This document shows, one piece after another, positions 12,474 through 20,167 of a DNA stretch of 64,000 bases. Source of the DNA: Sphingobacteriaceae bacterium DW12. GTDB lineage: Bacteria; Bacteroidota; Bacteroidia; Sphingobacteriales; Sphingobacteriaceae. A program made the position numbers and the translations under genes. The DNA lies in the NCBI GenBank assembly GCA_000783305.1, contig JROE01000004.1, forward strand, positions 1 to 64,000, read 5' to 3'. The notes below the pieces were generated by a model. It saw only the letters and a program-made list of their open reading frames with translations, was not told where the DNA came from and did not search any database. Every line of letters starts with the position of its first letter. Position 1 is the first letter of the stretch.

Positions 12474-13709
12474 TCAGACATTTGACACCAGCTGTCTCAA
12501 TGCAATTTCATAAGCCTTGGAGGAGATATGTGTTTTGTGGGCGCTTTCATTTCTGATTCTTTGAAGCGCTGCAAAAATGATGGCAGATACATCGGAAAAA
12601 ATAGCATCGTCGCTCATTTCGATATTCGACTGCATCAAATAAGCAAATACCCGAGCCATCCCACAATTGGCTATAAAGTCAGGAATAACAGCTACTTCGC
12701 GGTCCGCATATTCCATTACCGGCCCATAGAAGATTTCTCGATCGGCAAAGGGTACGTTTGCACCCGAAGCAATGAGCTCTAGTCCATTACTGACCATTGT
12801 TGCGATTTGATCTTTAGACACCAAGCGAGAGGCGGCAGCGGGAATAAAAACATCAGCACCTACCTTCCAAATTTCCTCATTGATACGCTCGAAAGGGAGA
12901 AGATTAGAGGAGCTCAACTCATTTCGATTTCTATTCAAAAAGAGCGCCGTAATCTCCTCCTCAGTAAATCCCTCCTGACGGATTAACCCACCTACCCTAT
13001 CAATGATTCCAACTACTTTTACGCCTAGCTTGGAAAGGTAAAAAGCCGCGGAAGCAGCCACATTCCCCCAACCTTGGATAATGACCCGTTTACCTTGACA
13101 TCCATTGAGGTATAAAGTGTAGAAATGTCGAACTGCTTCAGCAACACCATAACCTGTTATCATATCGGCGACCTTATACTTTCGTTTGAGATCTGGACTA
13201 TACGCCGAGTCCTCCAATACTTTTGAGACACCATAGCGCAGTTGACCGATTTGATGGATGCGTTCGTTTTCCCTCACATTGAAATGTCCAGTGAGCACCC
13301 CTTCCTGTGGGTGCCATAGGCCATATTGTTCAGTCAGCGGAATGACGTCATGAATCTCATCTACGTTGAGATCGCCCCCTGTGCCGTAGTAGTTTTTAAG
13401 GAGTGGCGTAACAACTTTAAACCATCTATCCAATACCTCTTGCCTTCGAGGATCCGCTGGATCGAAGTTGATTCCAGATTTTGCCCCACCAATAGCAGGA
13501 CCAGATACCGTAAATTTCACTTCCATTGTTTTGGCCAATGATTCTACTTCATTACGGTCCAAACCGGCACGCATCCGGGTACCTCCACCCGCTGCACCAC
13601 CTCTTAAGGAATTGATTACAACCCAACCCTCTGCCTCGGTCTGATTATCTTTCCATTCAAATACAATTTCAGGACGCCTCTGTTCAAATGCTTGTAATAA
13701 ATCTTTCAT
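12474..13709 (-). CDS. Glu/Leu/Phe/Val dehydrogenase family protein
   Basis: 411 residues. The N-terminal dimerisation/catalytic domain carries GGAAGGGTRMRAGL and GPAIGGAKSGINFDP, where the Lys is the expected catalytic residue. The C-terminal Rossmann domain contains VIIQGWGNVAASAA for NAD(P) binding. It oxidatively deaminates an amino acid (glutamate or a branched or aromatic one) to its 2-oxo acid. It lies 177 bp downstream of hppD on the same strand, next to the whole tyrosine breakdown cluster, so a role in removing or recycling amino groups from Phe/Tyr is plausible. Substrate cannot be read from the motifs alone. Confidence 0.88.
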   Translation of the reverse strand: MKDLLQAFEQRRPEIVFEWKDNQTEAEGWVVINSLRGGAAGGGTRMRAGLDRNEVESLAKTMEVKFTVSGPAIGGAKSGINFDPADPRRQEVLDRWFKVVTPLLKNYYGTGGDLNVDEIHDVIPLTEQYGLWHPQEGVLTGHFNVRENERIHQIGQLRYGVSKVLEDSAYSPDLKRKYKVADMITGYGVAEAVRHFYTLYLNGCQGKRVIIQGWGNVAASAAFYLSKLGVKVVGIIDRVGGLIRQEGFTEEEITALFLNRNRNELSSSNLLPFERINEEIWKVGADVFIPAAASRLVSKDQIATMVSNGLELIASGANVPFADREIFYGPVMEYADREVAVIPDFIANCGMARVFAYLMQSNIEMSDDAIFSDVSAIIFAALQRIRNESAHKTHISSKAYEIALRQLVSNV

Positions 13710-13854
13710 GTATATCTAATTAGATGGTGTGGGGGTCCAAAAAGACCACAAACTTCCCGACCTTGATTGTCTACGACTCACTCGCACTCAAGGTTTAAAG
13801 AATCTTCATTGACCTATAGGGGCTTTCTAATCCCTAGCAGGTAGGCAGTGAACT

Positions 13855-13878
13855 TTTTAGAATCCCCTAATTCTAAAA
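13855..13878 (-). terminator. Weak terminator-like hairpin after hppD
   Basis: ttttagaat and attctaaaa form a 9-bp A/T-rich stem around a 6-nt loop, just past the hppD stop codon. On the minus strand the stem itself supplies the U-rich stretch. Confidence 0.4.
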
Positions 13879-13886
13879 CAACTGTA

Positions 13887-15014
13887 TTATAGATTACCTC
13901 GTTTCTCTTGCTCACGCTCTATTGCCTCGAACAATGCCTTAAAATTACCGGCGCCAAAGCTTTGTGCCCCTTTACGTTGAATAATCTCGTAAAATAATGT
14001 CGGCCTATCTTCAACTGGCTTTGTAAAAATCTGTAAAAGATACCCTTCATCATCTCTATCAACCAAGATACCCAACTCTTGGATAATCTTAATTTCTTCA
14101 TCAATCTGACCTACACGCTCAGGTAACATATCATAATATGCTTCTGGTGGAGCACCTAAAAACTCTACGCCTCTAGCTTTTAAAGCTTTTACCGTATTGA
14201 CGATATCTTGGGTTGCCAGAGCAGCATGTTGTACACCCTCGCCTTCATAATATTCTAAGTATTCTTCAATCTGGGATTTTTTCTTTCCCTCGGCCGGTTC
14301 ATTAATAGGAAATTTGACGAAACCATTTCCATTACTCATTACTTTGCTCATAAGGGCAGAATATTCGGTATTGATCTGTTTGTCATCAAAAGAAAGTACA
14401 TTGACAAAACCCATCACATTTTGATACCATTCAACAGTTTCGTTCATTTGATTCCACCCAACATTACCTACACAATGATCGATATATAACAAACCTGTTT
14501 CCTCCGGTTGATAGTCGCTCTCCCAAGGTTCATATCCAGGCATAAAAGCGCCTCGATAGTTCCCCCGTTCAACAAATAGATGAACAGTCTCGCCATAAGT
14601 ATAAATACCCGACGTACAAACCTCGCCATATTCATCCAGCATGATTTTAGGCTCCTGATATGACCTTGCTCCTCGCTTAACAGTTTCTTCATAAGCCTTT
14701 TTAGCATCATCCACCCATAGAGCCAATATTTTTACTCCATCACCGTGTTTTTTGACATGATGGGCTATTGGATGATCGGAATGGAGTGCAGTGGTCAATA
14801 CTAGTCTAATTTTATTCTGCCGAAGGACATATGAAGCCCGATCACGCACTCCGGTCTCCGGTCCGGCATAGGCCTCAGACTGAAATCCAAAAGCCGTCTT
14901 GTAATAATGTGCCGCTTGCTTAGCATTGCCGACATAGAATTCAATGTGATCCGTCCCATTAATGGGGAGAAAATCTTGGGCAAGTGCTATTTTCTCTGCA
15001 AAGGTTTTTGTCAT
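13887..15014 (-). CDS. hppD: 4-Hydroxyphenylpyruvate dioxygenase
   Basis: 375 residues, two vicinal-oxygen-chelate domains. The Fe(II) ligands are visible as His180 (YIDHCVGN), His263 (VQHAAL) and Glu343 (FYEII). It converts 4-hydroxyphenylpyruvate to homogentisate, the second step of tyrosine breakdown. The C-terminal segment with QRKGAQSFGAGNFKALFEA is the lid helix typical of HPPD. It starts 25 bp after the stop of hmgA, so hmgA-hppD is an operon in which product-forming and product-using enzymes are co-expressed. Confidence 0.97.
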   Translation of the reverse strand: MTKTFAEKIALAQDFLPINGTDHIEFYVGNAKQAAHYYKTAFGFQSEAYAGPETGVRDRASYVLRQNKIRLVLTTALHSDHPIAHHVKKHGDGVKILALWVDDAKKAYEETVKRGARSYQEPKIMLDEYGEVCTSGIYTYGETVHLFVERGNYRGAFMPGYEPWESDYQPEETGLLYIDHCVGNVGWNQMNETVEWYQNVMGFVNVLSFDDKQINTEYSALMSKVMSNGNGFVKFPINEPAEGKKKSQIEEYLEYYEGEGVQHAALATQDIVNTVKALKARGVEFLGAPPEAYYDMLPERVGQIDEEIKIIQELGILVDRDDEGYLLQIFTKPVEDRPTLFYEIIQRKGAQSFGAGNFKALFEAIEREQEKRGNL

Positions 15015-15039
15015 AACGTATATATTTTTTTTTCATTAT

Positions 15040-16197
15040 CTAACTCAACCAAGATTTATAGTAATCCTGATCTTCGATTTCCAACGCCTTTTGTGTTAAC
15101 ATCAAGGGTCTAAAAGGATCAATCATGACCGCAAGCTCTTCCGTCTTGGTCTGCCCAATACTTTTTTCGACAGTACCGGGATGTGGTCCATGAGGTATCC
15201 CCCCCGGGTGTAATGTAATCTGCCCACGCTCAACAGATTTTCGACTCATGAAATCTCCATCTACATAATATAACACCTCATCTGAATCCACATTACTATG
15301 ATTATAAGGAGCTGGGATGGATTGGGGGTGATAATCATATAGCCTTGGGCAGAAACTGCACAACACGAACGAATCGGTTTCAAATGTCTGATGCACAGGA
15401 GGAGGTTGATGAAGCTTGCCCGTAATCGGCATAAAATCATGTATGGAGAATGCCCATGGATAATGATAGCCATCCCATCCTATAAAATCGAAGGGATGAC
15501 TGCCATACACGTATGGGTATATCAACCCTTGCTTCTTTATCCTAATCTCAAATTCCCCGAATTGGTCTATTGTCTCCAAATCAAGAGGTCGTTTGATATC
15601 CCTCTCGCAAAAGGGAGCGTGCTCCATAAGCTGTCCAAACTCATTACGATATCGCTTGGGAGTCCTTACAGGTGCAAACGACTCTACGATAAAAAGTCTA
15701 TTCTCTGCATTTTCGAAATCTAATTGATAGATAATCCCTCGTGGAATCACGAGATAATCACCATATTCAAAGGAAATATGACCATACCCCGTTTTCAAGA
15801 CACCCCTCCCTTCGTGCACAAAGATGATTTCATCCGCCTGACTATTTTTGTAAAAGTAGGTACGCATGGATTCTTGAGGTGCCGCCAGTGAGATATGCAA
15901 ATCTTGATTAACCAAAATTGGGGTCCGGCTCTCTAGGTAGTCGGCCTTTGGTTGAATCTTAAATCCTTTTAAACTGGTATGTTTAAGATGTTTTTCACGG
16001 GCGACCGTTGGAGAGACATCATAGGGCTCTCTAATCTGTTTGACCAACGTTGGAGGATGACAGTGATAAACCAAGGAGTACGTACTGGAGAAACCATGTG
16101 TAGATACTAGTTCCTCAGCATACAACTCTCCGTTGGATTTTCTGAAAACTGTGTGTCTTTTTTTTGGGATTTTACCCAGTTGATGATAAATTGACAT
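15040..16197 (-). CDS. hmgA: Homogentisate 1,2-dioxygenase
   Basis: 385 residues of the HmgA cupin family. It opens the ring of homogentisate to give 4-maleylacetoacetate. Characteristic stretches are HEGRGVLKTGYGHISFEYGD (first cupin), PAPYNHSNVDSDEVLYYVDG and HPGGIPHGPHPG (second cupin, metal site). It is the first gene of the hmgA-hppD operon. Its leader is about 195 nt, measured from a TATATTTG box at 16402-16395. Length is slightly below that of proteobacterial HmgA (about 430). Confidence 0.95.
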   Translation of the reverse strand: MSIYHQLGKIPKKRHTVFRKSNGELYAEELVSTHGFSSTYSLVYHCHPPTLVKQIREPYDVSPTVAREKHLKHTSLKGFKIQPKADYLESRTPILVNQDLHISLAAPQESMRTYFYKNSQADEIIFVHEGRGVLKTGYGHISFEYGDYLVIPRGIIYQLDFENAENRLFIVESFAPVRTPKRYRNEFGQLMEHAPFCERDIKRPLDLETIDQFGEFEIRIKKQGLIYPYVYGSHPFDFIGWDGYHYPWAFSIHDFMPITGKLHQPPPVHQTFETDSFVLCSFCPRLYDYHPQSIPAPYNHSNVDSDEVLYYVDGDFMSRKSVERGQITLHPGGIPHGPHPGTVEKSIGQTKTEELAVMIDPFRPLMLTQKALEIEDQDYYKSWLS

Positions 16198-16276
16198 AAT
16201 AGTGTCTGATTTAAAACCGTTAAAAAATTAATAAATTGAGATAGCCAAAAGAATAAATGGCAAAGGGAAGAGGAAC

Positions 16277-16372
16277 TTAATATTGGGCAAACACCACATC
16301 AGCAATCATTGCTCTAGTAAAAGCAATCATGCCTGTGGATACTTTCAGATAATGTAACCCGCTGATGTTCAT
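16277..16372 (-). other. 31-codon upstream open frame in the hmgA leader
   Basis: Within the hmgA leader, an ATG at 16372 opens a 31-codon frame (begins MNISGLHYLK, ends DVVFAQY) that stops at 16277, 80 bp before hmgA. No clear ribosome-binding site is seen. A frame this short can occur by chance; it is listed because it fills the only part of a long leader between a good -7 box and the operon. Confidence 0.25.
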
Positions 16373-16394
16373 AAATTGGTATATAGTTGCTACT

Positions 16395-16402
16395 CAAATA
16401 TA
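16395..16402 (-). promoter_or_regulatory. -7 box of the hmgA-hppD operon
   Basis: Minus-strand TATATTTG in the divergent region between hmgA and the fumarylacetoacetase gene. It leaves a 5' leader of about 195 nt. No -33 TTG at the standard distance. Confidence 0.45.
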
Positions 16403-16498
16403 ACGCATATTTTCAATAACTTTTATAGATTTTGCATATTTAAATCAGAACATGTTTATATTTACCCCAATACCTGTTTATGATGATACTCCAGTAAT

Positions 16499-17473
16499 AT
16501 GAAAATTGCAACATACCTATATGAAGGATTAGAAGGCTTAGGATTTGTTGTCGGAAAATGGATCTACCCAATTTCCAAAACCAACCCAGCGTACCCCGCT
16601 ACTATGGCTCAGTTTTTGGATGGTGGTGCTGAAAGCATGCAAATCCTGCAAGAATCTTATGACCGCATCATCGCTTCCAAACAAAATCATGAAGGAACTC
16701 TCGCTATTGAAGAAGTATCCTTTATGCCCCCGGTACCTCACCCAACATCACTACGTGATGCGTATGCTTTTAGGCAGCATGTGGCCACTTCCAGACGGAA
16801 TCGTGGACTGGACATGATTCCAGAATTTGATAAGTTTCCCGTATTTTATTTTTCCAATCATCAAGCTATAGTTGGCCCAGGTAATGTATACTGCATGCCC
16901 CAGCACTTTGAAAAACTGGACTTCGAACTAGAAGTCGCTATCGTCATTAACAAACGCGGCAAAAATATTGCCGCCAAAGACGCAGATCAATATATAGCAG
17001 GGTATATGATAATGAACGACTTTAGTGCGCGAGCGCTACAAATGGAAGAAATGAAACTGAACTTGGGGCCAGCTAAGGGAAAAGACTTTGCGACGGCCAT
17101 CGGTCCATGGCTAGTAACAAAAGACGAACTCCTCCCATTCAAGATACCTGCTCCAACAGGACATATTGGCGATGCTTACAACCTTCAAATGACCTGCTCT
17201 ATCAATGGTATTCAAGTGTCTAAAGGTAGTTTTGCAGATATGCACTGGACATTTGCAGAAATCATCGAAAGAATATCCTATGGTGTGGAGATATATCCAG
17301 GGGATGTCATCGGCTCAGGAACTGTAGGAACAGGGTGCTTCCTGGAACTGAACGGTACGGGCAAACTCCACTCGCCCAATTACATAGAACAATGGCTATC
17401 CGAAGGCGACGAGATAACTTTAGAAGTAACAGGGCTGGGACAGCTGCACAATACTATTGTTCTACAATCTTAA
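16499..17473 (+). CDS. fahA: Fumarylacetoacetate hydrolase family protein, probable fumarylacetoacetase
   Basis: 324 residues with the FAH fold. Metal-binding acidic residues lie in LDFELEVAIVIN and the catalytic region includes GYMIMNDFSARALQMEE. GSGTVGTGCFLEL and GDEITLEVTGLG mark the C-terminal half. In the tyrosine pathway it splits fumarylacetoacetate into fumarate and acetoacetate. It is divergent from hmgA and shares the control region with it, which strongly supports that role over other FAH-family reactions. The next gene starts 39 bp downstream, so the two form an operon. Confidence 0.92.
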   Translation: MKIATYLYEGLEGLGFVVGKWIYPISKTNPAYPATMAQFLDGGAESMQILQESYDRIIASKQNHEGTLAIEEVSFMPPVPHPTSLRDAYAFRQHVATSRRNRGLDMIPEFDKFPVFYFSNHQAIVGPGNVYCMPQHFEKLDFELEVAIVINKRGKNIAAKDADQYIAGYMIMNDFSARALQMEEMKLNLGPAKGKDFATAIGPWLVTKDELLPFKIPAPTGHIGDAYNLQMTCSINGIQVSKGSFADMHWTFAEIIERISYGVEIYPGDVIGSGTVGTGCFLELNGTGKLHSPNYIEQWLSEGDEITLEVTGLGQLHNTIVLQS

Positions 17474-17512
17474 TTAAGAAATCTACATTCTAATTTTCCA
17501 ACTATACGCTAC

Positions 17513-18415
17513 ATGTCACAGCATATAAACACCAAAACTTTTGACCCCATACAACAACAAACGATATTTGATAATTTAATCAAATACGCGGTAGCCCCCC
17601 GTCCTATTTGTTTTGCCAGCACAGTTGATGCTAACGGCAATATTAATCTTAGCCCTTTTAGCTACTTCAACCTGATGTCACACCAACCGCCGATTTGCGT
17701 CTTCTCTCCTTTGCGTCGAATGCGAGATGGATCGGCCAAGCATACACTGGAAAACATGAAAGAAGTTGGCGAGGTAGTCATCAATATTGTGAACTACAGC
17801 ATGGTGCAGCAACAATCTCTGGCTAGCACTGAGTATGCCAAAGGAGTAAATGAATTTGAAAAGGCGGGTTTTACAGCGATTGCATCTGATCATGTGACCC
17901 CCCCACGCGTAGCAGAATCTCCCGTACAATTAGAATGTCGAGTGACGAATATTATACCACTCAGTGATGCCCCCGGAGCAGGTAACCTCGTATTAGCCGA
18001 AATACTGAGTATGCATGTGCACGAACACCTTATTGATGAACAAAACGAGATTGCTCAAGATGAATTGGACCTCATTGCGCGATTGGGTGGGGACTGGTAT
18101 TGTAGGGTAACGAGAGACAATCTCTTTAAAATTCCCAAACCACTGCGTAGTCTAGGAATAGGAATTGACAGATTACCGACACATATCCGACTCTCTAGAG
18201 TATTAACAGGTAATCATCTTGGCCTATTGGCCAATGTTGAGGAGCTGCCTCTACTAAAACAAAGCGCGGCCACCAATCTCCTCGTCCAACAACTACTGAA
18301 TACTTGGCAAAATGACACGCAGCAACTCCAGTTGCACCTACATCAGTATGCAGCACAGCTATTGGATGATGGAGAGATAGAGCAAGCTTGGCAGATTTTA
18401 CTATTAAATCAATAG
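17513..18415 (+). CDS. Flavin reductase-like (DIM6/NTAB family) flavoprotein with C-terminal extension
   Basis: 300 residues. The first 205 or so form a flavin-reductase-like split-barrel FMN-binding domain: APRPICFASTVDANGNINLSPFSYFNLMS and PPICVFSP are the typical FMN-contacting strands (shown in part). The remaining 90 residues are helical and Gln/Leu-rich (LLVQQLLNTWQND...), which ordinary flavin reductases of about 200 residues lack. It is co-transcribed with fahA inside the tyrosine catabolic cluster. The reaction is unknown. No maleylacetoacetate isomerase gene is visible in the cluster, so an involvement in that step is one possibility, unproven. Its last 12 bp overlap the convergent hydroxylase gene. 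Confidence 0.85.
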   Translation: MSQHINTKTFDPIQQQTIFDNLIKYAVAPRPICFASTVDANGNINLSPFSYFNLMSHQPPICVFSPLRRMRDGSAKHTLENMKEVGEVVINIVNYSMVQQQSLASTEYAKGVNEFEKAGFTAIASDHVTPPRVAESPVQLECRVTNIIPLSDAPGAGNLVLAEILSMHVHEHLIDEQNEIAQDELDLIARLGGDWYCRVTRDNLFKIPKPLRSLGIGIDRLPTHIRLSRVLTGNHLGLLANVEELPLLKQSAATNLLVQQLLNTWQNDTQQLQLHLHQYAAQLLDDGEIEQAWQILLLNQ

Positions 18416-20167
18416 GATTCCAATATCACGGTCATTCACCAACCTTACCCCATCGGCAATCAATTTATTGAGCTGCGGATGTTGTGCTTGAATGGCCTTC
18501 AATTTACGCTCAACTACTAAGGACAATTCATTATCAGACTGTTCAGTGACAACTTCGAGTATCTCCAACAATGCCAACCAAGCTGTTGGGTATTGATCGA
18601 CCAACTGTTCAAATAAGTCTTGAACAGTCCTTTCAGCACGATGCCCTTCACGGATACTTCTGATATCGGCATACAGACCCTGTAGGAAAAGGGTGTCTTC
18701 ATCGTATTGTTGTTGGGACGATTTGACATTGGAAACTGCTACTTGGGTTTCAAAAGCACTTTTATCAGCAGCTCCAGAGAACACCGATGTTATATATTCT
18801 CCAACAGCCATGTCGTATGTCCCCCAATCAGGTTCAAATAATACCATACAATTTCGAACATCTGTCACTTGACAAGGCGAAAATGACAGCAATAAAAGCT
18901 TGTCTTCTCGAAAAATCATGGATTGGACGAGTCCCCGCACTTCTATCCCAGATTCAAAAGTAAGTTGGGTCTCTTTGCCAATTTGTATACTTGCACTAGC
19001 CAGATCGTCCACCGTATAGTACTCTAGGGATTTACCGGCAGCCGCTAATCTGCATACCGGACTACTGAATCCCTCAGCGTGATACGATTTGTCGTGACCA
19101 TCCAGTTGTTTCCCTTGAAAAGACAGCGCAGAAGGTCCTTTTGTCCGAATGTATATCAGTTCATCAGACTGAGCAGTCGTTTGAAATACACCCGAAACCT
19201 GTAATCCCGAGCTATACGTTACAGTACAAATATTATGACAAGCAATCGCTTTGTCGACGCTCACCTTGCCCCCGACACGAAAAGCCATCGAGTCAGCATA
19301 CTTATCCAGCACCTCCCTCAGTCTACCAAAATCAGGAGTCACAAATAATTGTGGCTGTGGCTTGGTAATATCATAGGGATACTCAATGGCATCTAGGGTG
19401 TAGGGAAGTTTGAGCACTTCAGGACGCATACAAGATGCACTCTCACCAATAGACGATAGTAACCCCGCGCCATATATCTTGGGCTCATCCAAAGGGCCAA
19501 TCAACCCGTATTCAACTGTCCACCAATGCAACCTACTCAACAGCGCCATTTCAGATGGCTCTCCCATATTTTGTTGTATATTATTCAGAATCGACTCTGC
19601 TTCTTCAACCTCGTCAATTGTCGCATCGCCCTTTTCCTTGATGATGGACAATCGTCTAATCGCTTCATAAAGTTCAAAATCTTTCGCAGAAAACATCGCT
19701 TTGGCACCGATCTCACCAAAATATTGCAAGTACTCGGCATATTCTAGTTCCCCAATTATTGGCGCATGGCCCGAAGACTCATGTATAATATCTGGTGCAG
19801 GGGTATATTCGATGTGTTCCATCTGCCGGATATCAGCTGCTACAACAAGCACACGATATGCTTGAAATTCCATAAACGCGGATGGTGGAATGAAACCGTC
19901 CACCGTAGCAGCCCCCCAACCAATGTGCTGCAAACTATCGTTCATACTTTGTAAGCTGGGAATACGCTCAATAGTCAAACCTGCTTTACGAAGTCCAGGA
20001 ATATACGGATAGTAAGCTACATCTTTGAGATAGGCATAATTTTGTCGCATCACATAACGCCATATTGCTTGATCAATAGCGGTATATCGTTCATATTGCT
20101 GCGGTACCACATACTTTTTGAGATGTGATGGCAGACGTGCCAATACTGGATTATTGTAAGTCTCCAT
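18404..20167 (-). CDS. phhA: Aromatic amino acid hydroxylase (phenylalanine 4-monooxygenase type) with long C-terminal extension
   Basis: 587 residues. The catalytic domain lies in the first 300: the iron ligands His129 and His134 sit in PDIIHESSGHAP and the Glu ligand in WWTVEYGLIG. It hydroxylates phenylalanine to tyrosine using tetrahydropterin and O2, feeding the adjacent hppD/hmgA/fahA pathway. There is no N-terminal ACT domain as in animals. Bacterial enzymes are usually about 260-300 residues, so the C-terminal 280 residues are extra; they look like beta-rich segments followed by helices and have no motif I recognise. A TAAGTTTG box lies 18 bp upstream. Tail-to-tail overlap of 12 bp with the flavoprotein gene. 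Confidence 0.9.
   Translation of the reverse strand: METYNNPVLARLPSHLKKYVVPQQYERYTAIDQAIWRYVMRQNYAYLKDVAYYPYIPGLRKAGLTIERIPSLQSMNDSLQHIGWGAATVDGFIPPSAFMEFQAYRVLVVAADIRQMEHIEYTPAPDIIHESSGHAPIIGELEYAEYLQYFGEIGAKAMFSAKDFELYEAIRRLSIIKEKGDATIDEVEEAESILNNIQQNMGEPSEMALLSRLHWWTVEYGLIGPLDEPKIYGAGLLSSIGESASCMRPEVLKLPYTLDAIEYPYDITKPQPQLFVTPDFGRLREVLDKYADSMAFRVGGKVSVDKAIACHNICTVTYSSGLQVSGVFQTTAQSDELIYIRTKGPSALSFQGKQLDGHDKSYHAEGFSSPVCRLAAAGKSLEYYTVDDLASASIQIGKETQLTFESGIEVRGLVQSMIFREDKLLLLSFSPCQVTDVRNCMVLFEPDWGTYDMAVGEYITSVFSGAADKSAFETQVAVSNVKSSQQQYDEDTLFLQGLYADIRSIREGHRAERTVQDLFEQLVDQYPTAWLALLEILEVVTEQSDNELSLVVERKLKAIQAQHPQLNKLIADGVRLVNDRDIGILLI

Follow-up and report, generated by a model that had tools for sequence, protein, structure and literature searches.

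A flavin-reductase-like protein and a second, unrelated family as candidate substitutes for maleylacetoacetate isomerase in Bacteroidota

The window considered here, that is, the whole stretch of DNA analysed (64,000 nucleotides; positions 1 to 64,000 of contig JROE01000004.1, assembly GCA_000783305.1), comes from Sphingobacteriaceae bacterium DW12. Between positions 12,474 and 20,167 it carries a cluster for phenylalanine/tyrosine breakdown that raises one question: which protein acts between homogentisate 1,2-dioxygenase (HmgA) and fumarylacetoacetate hydrolase (FahA), where maleylacetoacetate is isomerised, if the zeta-class glutathione transferase MaiA is missing? The preliminary description of this cluster had suggested that a flavin-reductase-like protein encoded next to fahA, here called FR, replaces the isomerase or supports another step. 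That suggestion survived our genomic tests and its replacement half was strengthened by a second protein family, F5, while the argument from absent glutathione that accompanied it proved weak for this genome. Our best reading of the genomic patterns is that FR and F5 would be two non-homologous replacements of MaiA, both, we infer, acting on maleylacetoacetate. We consider it rather probable that FR is an enzyme dedicated to the homogentisate pathway, standing in the place of MaiA and making the HmgA product cleavable by FahA. The genes concerned are as follows.

13887-15014, minus strand: HPPD, 4-hydroxyphenylpyruvate dioxygenase (TIGR01263, 461.5 bits, cut-off 277)
15040-16197, minus strand: HmgA, homogentisate 1,2-dioxygenase, divergent type (HgmA_N, PF20510, 44.5 bits, cut-off 20.2)
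16499-17473, plus strand: FahA, fumarylacetoacetate hydrolase family, short type (PF01557, 185 bits)
17513-18415, plus strand: flavoprotein FR, 300 residues, candidate replacement of MaiA (PF01613, 59.1 bits)
18404-20167, minus strand: PheH, aromatic amino acid hydroxylase, 587 residues (NF010657, 746.5 bits, cut-off 346)

Open reading frames and the Pfam and NCBIfam scans agree on the presence of PheH, HPPD, HmgA and FahA, as first described. The window HmgA reaches 59.2 of 510.75 bits with the canonical model TIGR01015, and the window FahA 78.5 of 375.3 bits with the canonical fumarylacetoacetase model TIGR01266; both are overlooked by equivalog models because the divergent and short types score far below these cut-offs. 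FR starts 39 bp past fahA on the same strand, a spacing that suggests co-transcription. PheH is convergent with FR, and the 3' ends of the two genes overlap by 12 bp on opposite strands.

The isomerase gap in the homogentisate pathway is real and phylum-wide. Our survey covered 345 Bacteroidota genomes, drawn evenly and with a completeness of ≥95% (99.97% for DW12), and the MaiA model TIGR01262 was found in none of them, DW12 included; the same search matched 3 of 14 control genomes, one above the cut-off. DW12 is also without a GST_N domain, in line with the zeta-class transferase reported missing from the cluster. A match to the window HmgA (E≤0.001) was present in 191 of the 345 genomes, 170 of them clear (E<1e-20) and 21 weak. 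A mycothiol-type isomerase was rejected as a candidate, since DW12 has no MDMPI_N domain; of 42 genomes scanned for this domain, 15 matched at E≤0.001 (nine above the cut-off), with no clear tie to HmgA by eye.

Both the absence of MaiA and the flavin-reductase neighbour had already been noticed, as they were reported in 2021 (PMC8674449). That paper describes sludge metagenomes with no maleylacetoacetate isomerase gene resembling known ones, and a Bacteroidales bin in which genes for HmgA, HPPD and fumarylacetoacetase are grouped with a flavin reductase gene and with a putative isomerase/cyclase-like gene, the exact function of the latter being called unclear. These homogentisate clusters are of the same kind as ours, with MaiA missing and a flavin reductase-like gene by fumarylacetoacetase, but the phenylalanine/tyrosine section gives the flavin reductase no role and contains neither a phylum-wide profile nor F5. 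Our literature search, which covered few subscription papers and preprints, returned nothing describing FR or F5 as an isomerase, nor their complementary distribution. Of two further papers, one contains neither maleylacetoacetate nor homogentisate (PMC9007349), and passages of the other treat the split-barrel superfamily with no mention of the FR protein (PMC12204192).

The profiles over the 345 maiA-less genomes showed that FR follows hmgA and fahA, which bears out the proposed link to the pathway. Within the class of the window, HmgA (E<1e-20) and FR (E<1e-40) were both present in 81 genomes and both absent in 10, with no discordant case. Six of these ten HmgA-less genomes, from which FR is absent too (G336, G007, G268, G153, G289 and G161), belong to four families (f1, f2, f4 and f5) that are positive apart from them, and the losses of HmgA and FR look repeated because the other sampled members of these families keep both. 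For the phylum, 135 genomes had FR at E<1e-40, with HmgA clear in 114, weak in 20 and missing in one.

Bacteroidota HmgA was observed to be of two kinds, the divergent type of the window, far below the TIGR01015 cut-off, and the canonical type. All eight weak-HmgA genomes tested (seven with FR, plus G135) hold canonical TIGR01015 HmgA, and all 21 weak-HmgA genomes have the short-type FAH. The short type (E≤1e-35) was found in 68 of the 345 genomes, each with an HmgA match; FR was present at E<1e-40 in 60 of these, between 1e-20 and 1e-40 in seven, and not at all in G135. Among the 123 HmgA-positive genomes without the short type, canonical TIGR01266 was present in all 71 tested, and 22 of those 71 have FR at E<1e-40. 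FR therefore occurs with either type of HmgA and with either type of FAH. It lies ≤1.5 kb from FAH in 36 of the 82 genomes with coordinates for both, and runs of hmgA, fahA and FR recur across different families (L216, L217, L219, L220, L222).

With regard to genomes that lack FR, its absence (E>1e-20) was recorded in 32 clear-HmgA genomes, two of which (G282 and G328) do have a match, at 1e-6 to 1e-4. Of 20 fahA loci fetched from such genomes, 17 encode a protein of ~330 residues, F5, near fahA, and in 14 its gene is directly upstream of fahA. A profile search of the 345 genomes returned 53 F5-positive genomes that include all 32 clear-HmgA genomes without FR, and where FR does not reach E<1e-40, F5 lies ≤5 kb from FAH in 39 of 40 genomes. 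The two families coexist in seven genomes, and in all seven it is FR, never F5, that sits beside FAH; in two of them (L109 and L110) F5 keeps the gene order of the F5-fahA loci minus fahA, judged by neighbour order and length. In six of the seven, F5 is altered at positions that are invariant elsewhere: all six have changed at R196 and in the GLHH stretch, and five at C314, where the sixth is unaligned (L112 numbering, used throughout), while K194 and K226 are retained in all six. The F5 loci and alignments are:

F5 family: L051:3877-4869; L111-L189; L201:7941-8957; alignments A1 and A2

The exchange of FR and F5 at fahA, together with the residue loss of F5 in genomes that also have FR, is our strongest argument that the two families share one job. 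A shared job would in turn point to isomerisation, the step that is otherwise missing in both gene sets. The proposal that FR replaces the isomerase is thus better supported, because an unrelated family occupies the place at fahA where clear-HmgA genomes lack FR. Recurrent hmgA neighbours in FR-negative genomes other than F5 (NUDIX-like, acetoacetyl-CoA-synthetase-like and others) were set aside by eye.

F5 is not limited to Bacteroidota. A scan of named genomes returned at least 582 relatives, and the best 79 of these loci, mostly from metagenome-assembled genomes, belong to Balneolia, Rhodothermia, Ignavibacteria, Chloroflexi, Planctomycetota, Verrucomicrobia, Calditrichota, Acidobacteria, Krumholzibacteriia, Bacillales and one Poseidoniia archaeon (a metagenome-assembled genome); in all, F5 was seen in Bacteroidota, Bacillota, Actinomycetota, Chloroflexota, Planctomycetota, Verrucomicrobiota and this archaeon, among others. 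Within the best 79, FAH directly follows F5 in 60 of the 75 loci with F5 called, and HPPD or HmgA is also present in 12 of the 79. Plasmid matches came to 23 records, two of which were inspected: a Priestia aryabhattai plasmid with hppD, F5, fahA, hisC and hmgA in a row, where F5 is annotated as 'hypothetical protein', and a Streptomyces plasmid with F5 and fahA. What looked like a fusion of F5 and FAH in L174 was discarded as a wrong-frame open reading frame.

The Pfam scan of four F5 members gave no family (one member had two sub-threshold matches near E 0.02), and sequence comparison with solved structures returned no convincing relative (best E 0.029 over 56 positions). The AlphaFold2 model of F5 has a predicted local distance difference test (pLDDT) of 96.1 and a predicted template modelling score (pTM) of 0.93. 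Foldseek gave a weak result with this model, its single match at E≤0.001 being a deoxyribose-phosphate aldolase (DERA), and VIA-align ranked nearest, among its candidates, 47 rows at Z 17.3 to 15.0, consisting of DERA-family chains and of designs on that scaffold, with the next row at 13.8. F5 is therefore predicted to have an aldolase triosephosphate-isomerase-type (TIM) barrel fold of the DERA type. Nine residues are invariant in 45 F5 sequences (E115, E155, K194, R196, K226, H232, H233, N251 and C314), and in the model two of them, K194 and K226, are placed on consecutive strands. DERA has two catalytic lysines, the Schiff-base lysine and a second one, on neighbouring strands. F5 resembles DERA in its predicted fold, and its pair of invariant lysines may correspond to the catalytic pair of DERA, but it differs in showing no detected sequence similarity to Escherichia coli DeoC (hhalign with the single DeoC sequence, probability 0.3%), in its gene lying mostly by fahA, and in belonging to an unnamed family.

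FR itself consists of a flavin-reductase split barrel (approximately residues 1-214) and a C-terminal extension (approximately 215-300). The PF01613 (Flavin_Reduct) domain spans residues 29-173 at 59.1 bits (cut-off 27) and is the only Pfam match, so that FR belongs to neither the glutathione transferases nor MaiA; no NCBIfam model matched at E≤0.001. Although proposed for the same place between HmgA and FahA, FR differs from MaiA (TIGR01262) in the absence of a glutathione transferase domain, in its family fold and in showing no evidence of glutathione use. It is homologous to the 2-nitrobenzoate nitroreductase NbaA (4z85; E 9.9e-26) over residues 22-214, which align to 17-211 of the 216 residues of NbaA, and over residues 15-201 to component B of nitrilotriacetate monooxygenase (3bpk, 206 residues); both of these lack the extension. 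Since the homology to 4z85 stops at residue 214, ~86 C-terminal residues are extra in FR, close to the 90 first described. In a FastTree tree of 51 sequences, among which NbaA is not included, the long, extended FRs group in a single clade that is separate from shorter paralogues, and nearly all members of this clade are from HmgA-positive genomes; one of the shorter relatives outside it is from an HmgA-less genome. A structure model of FR from the single sequence reached a pLDDT of 37. The viral_contigs scan found no FR relatives, and the 307 plasmid records matching FR were all below 60% identity, none with 80% query coverage.

As for how the two proteins might work, we regard it as possible, though slightly on the doubtful side, that both replaced MaiA with FR as a flavin split-barrel cis-trans isomerase and F5 as a glutathione-free isomerase using a covalent iminium. 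To our knowledge, cis-trans isomerase activity is not known in the flavin split-barrel superfamily. In FR, a bound flavin mononucleotide (FMN), probably reduced, would activate the cis enedione by lowering its double-bond character, which would let it turn to the trans form; alternatively, reduced FMN may pass a hydride to the enedione to give succinylacetoacetate for FahA. We prefer isomerisation to reduction for FR because its substitute F5 shows no flavin domain. In the aldolase-like barrel predicted for F5, an invariant lysine would form an iminium with the keto group of the substrate, and the thiol of an invariant cysteine may add and release, mimicking the glutathione that in MaiA adds to and leaves the substrate.

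Nonetheless, several observations weigh against FR and F5 as replacements of MaiA and call for caution. Of the 191 HmgA-positive genomes, 17 lack both F5 and an FR at E<1e-40, namely:

Exceptions, part 1: G060, G088, G158, G186, G261, G290, G013, G033, G130
Exceptions, part 2: G029, G124, G132, G136, G247, G251, G271, G135

Sixteen of the 17 have only a shorter, weaker FR relative, which in two loci of family f29 (L103 and L105) has neighbours without an evident pathway link, and the remaining genome, G135, has canonical HmgA and short-type FAH with neither FR nor F5. Perhaps a third replacement exists in these genomes, or the shorter FR relatives serve. Conversely, a long FR is present in the HmgA-less genome G329, G289 has canonical FAH without HmgA, FR or F5, and in six F5-bearing genomes neither the window protein nor TIGR01015 detected an HmgA. 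Among the three of these fetched (L106, L107, L108), G313 has F5 beside fahA with all checked residues kept, G146 likewise keeps every checked F5 residue but shows no fahA in 16 kb, and in G316 F5 is degraded. The F5 of G068 is intact in the presence of FR, with all 27 places checked kept, and the F5 losses elsewhere may represent few events because all six degraded copies are from family f24. In 46 of the 82 genomes with coordinates for both, FR is located away from FAH. FRs that are short and have no extension reach E<1e-40 in G001, G006, G011, G017 and G072, and that of G017 (L084) sits within an hmgA-fahA operon, for which reason the extension is not essential. The E-value bounds were picked after the lists had been seen, the genome counts ignore kinship, so that related genomes are counted as if they were independent, and the reaction of FR cannot be read from co-occurrence.

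The glutathione argument of the preliminary description also adds less than it seemed to, as the absence of glutathione is not secured for DW12 and this argument is weak for its genome. DW12 has a glutathione-synthetase-like ATP-grasp gene (PF02955, C17:695868-696401, E 3.8e-49). The PF02955 model is unspecific, because at E≤0.001 it matches not only 28 of 40 genomes but also 9 of 14 controls, e.g., Bacillus subtilis and archaea. The gene (L198:5470-6465 on C17) adjoins those of a 612-residue protein and an N-formylglutamate-amidohydrolase-like protein, named by eye; no gshA was recognised by eye beside it, and no dedicated gshA search was made. Thiols can isomerise maleylacetoacetate non-enzymatically, and a replacement for MaiA may thus be unneeded.

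Among the rival explanations, that last possibility, with FahA hydrolysing maleylacetoacetate directly as its variant and FR unrelated in either case, would draw on the glutathione-synthetase-like gene of DW12; we consider it improbable, since it leaves unexplained the shared profile of FR and HmgA, the exchange of FR for F5 next to fahA, and the residues that F5 has lost where FR is present. A more serious competitor, yet still unlikely in our view, is a reductive by-pass, with FR as an ene-reductase converting maleylacetoacetate to succinylacetoacetate, which FahA would cleave to succinate and acetoacetate so that isomerisation is skipped. FR does belong to a flavin/nitro reductase family, FAH may accept succinylacetoacetate, and the same absent step and fahA neighbourhood account for the profile under this explanation too. 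A shared reductive role is less natural, however, for a substitute such as F5, for which an aldolase-like fold is predicted and Pfam recognises no flavin domain, and our literature search for such a reductase found none.

It is also quite unlikely that FR merely protects the pathway, for example by returning benzoquinone acetate (oxidised homogentisate) to homogentisate, and thus does not act between HmgA and FahA: flavin/quinone reductase chemistry would fit the family and FR tracks HmgA, but FR adjoins fahA in many genomes, gives way there to a family in which Pfam recognises no flavin domain, and the missing isomerase would stay unexplained. A service to phenylalanine hydroxylase, e.g., as a dihydropteridine reductase, is suggested by the neighbourhood of FR and PheH in the window, with its 3' overlap, and in L002. 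We rejected a tie to PheH and give this role very little chance, as PF00351 is missing in 20 of 40 FR-positive genomes tested, present in 17 of 32 F5-positive, FR-negative genomes, and absent from all eight HmgA-less genomes. We hold it just as improbable that some other isomerase does the work, such as the 'isomerase/cyclase-like' protein that the Bacteroidales bin encodes next to its genes for HPPD, HmgA, fumarylacetoacetase and flavin reductase (PMC8674449). In ten further loci chosen for FR, FAH is adjacent or one small open reading frame away in nine, and the tenth has none. The pattern H-x-G-[TS]-H-x-D-x-P, which we take to be the cyclase motif, gave no match in the window or in 224 fetched loci, in a search made with no positive control and not extended to the rest of the DW12 genome. 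The neighbours of FR proved to be DUF3891 in L007, DUF4197 in L010 and DUF3822 in L024, and the one in L006 has no Pfam match.

The remainder of the cluster adds one gene beside HPPD.

12474-13709, minus strand: glutamate/leucine/phenylalanine/valine-dehydrogenase family protein, 411 residues (PF00208, 105.3 bits; PF02812, 46.6 bits)

The NCBIfam scan of this protein gave no equivalog above its cut-off. Dehydrogenase-like genes, recognised by clustering or by eye, are also found near HPPD or HmgA in L156, L162 and L221, and here and in similar loci such a gene is perhaps the deaminating entry to the pathway. Acetoacetyl-CoA-synthetase-like or CoA-transferase-like genes, identified by eye, occur in or near the hmgA-fahA-FR cluster in L218 (2166-4142), L219 and L220 (c4) and in L223 and L224 (c5), consistent with acetoacetate as the end product. 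A repeat scan of the region returned short two-copy matches, and promoter and terminator scans gave counts close to those of shuffled sequence.

Our results mean that the annotated central pathway by which phenylalanine and tyrosine yield fumarate and acetoacetate contains an unfilled step throughout the phylum and perhaps, judging by the F5 operons, in other lineages as well. Two specific genes, FR and F5, are now testable candidates for this missing step. Should FR prove to isomerise, a very large flavoprotein superfamily would gain a new reaction. Should F5 prove to do so, a family of 'hypothetical proteins' would gain a function, and the automatic annotation of tyrosine breakdown could be corrected in many bacteria and some archaea.

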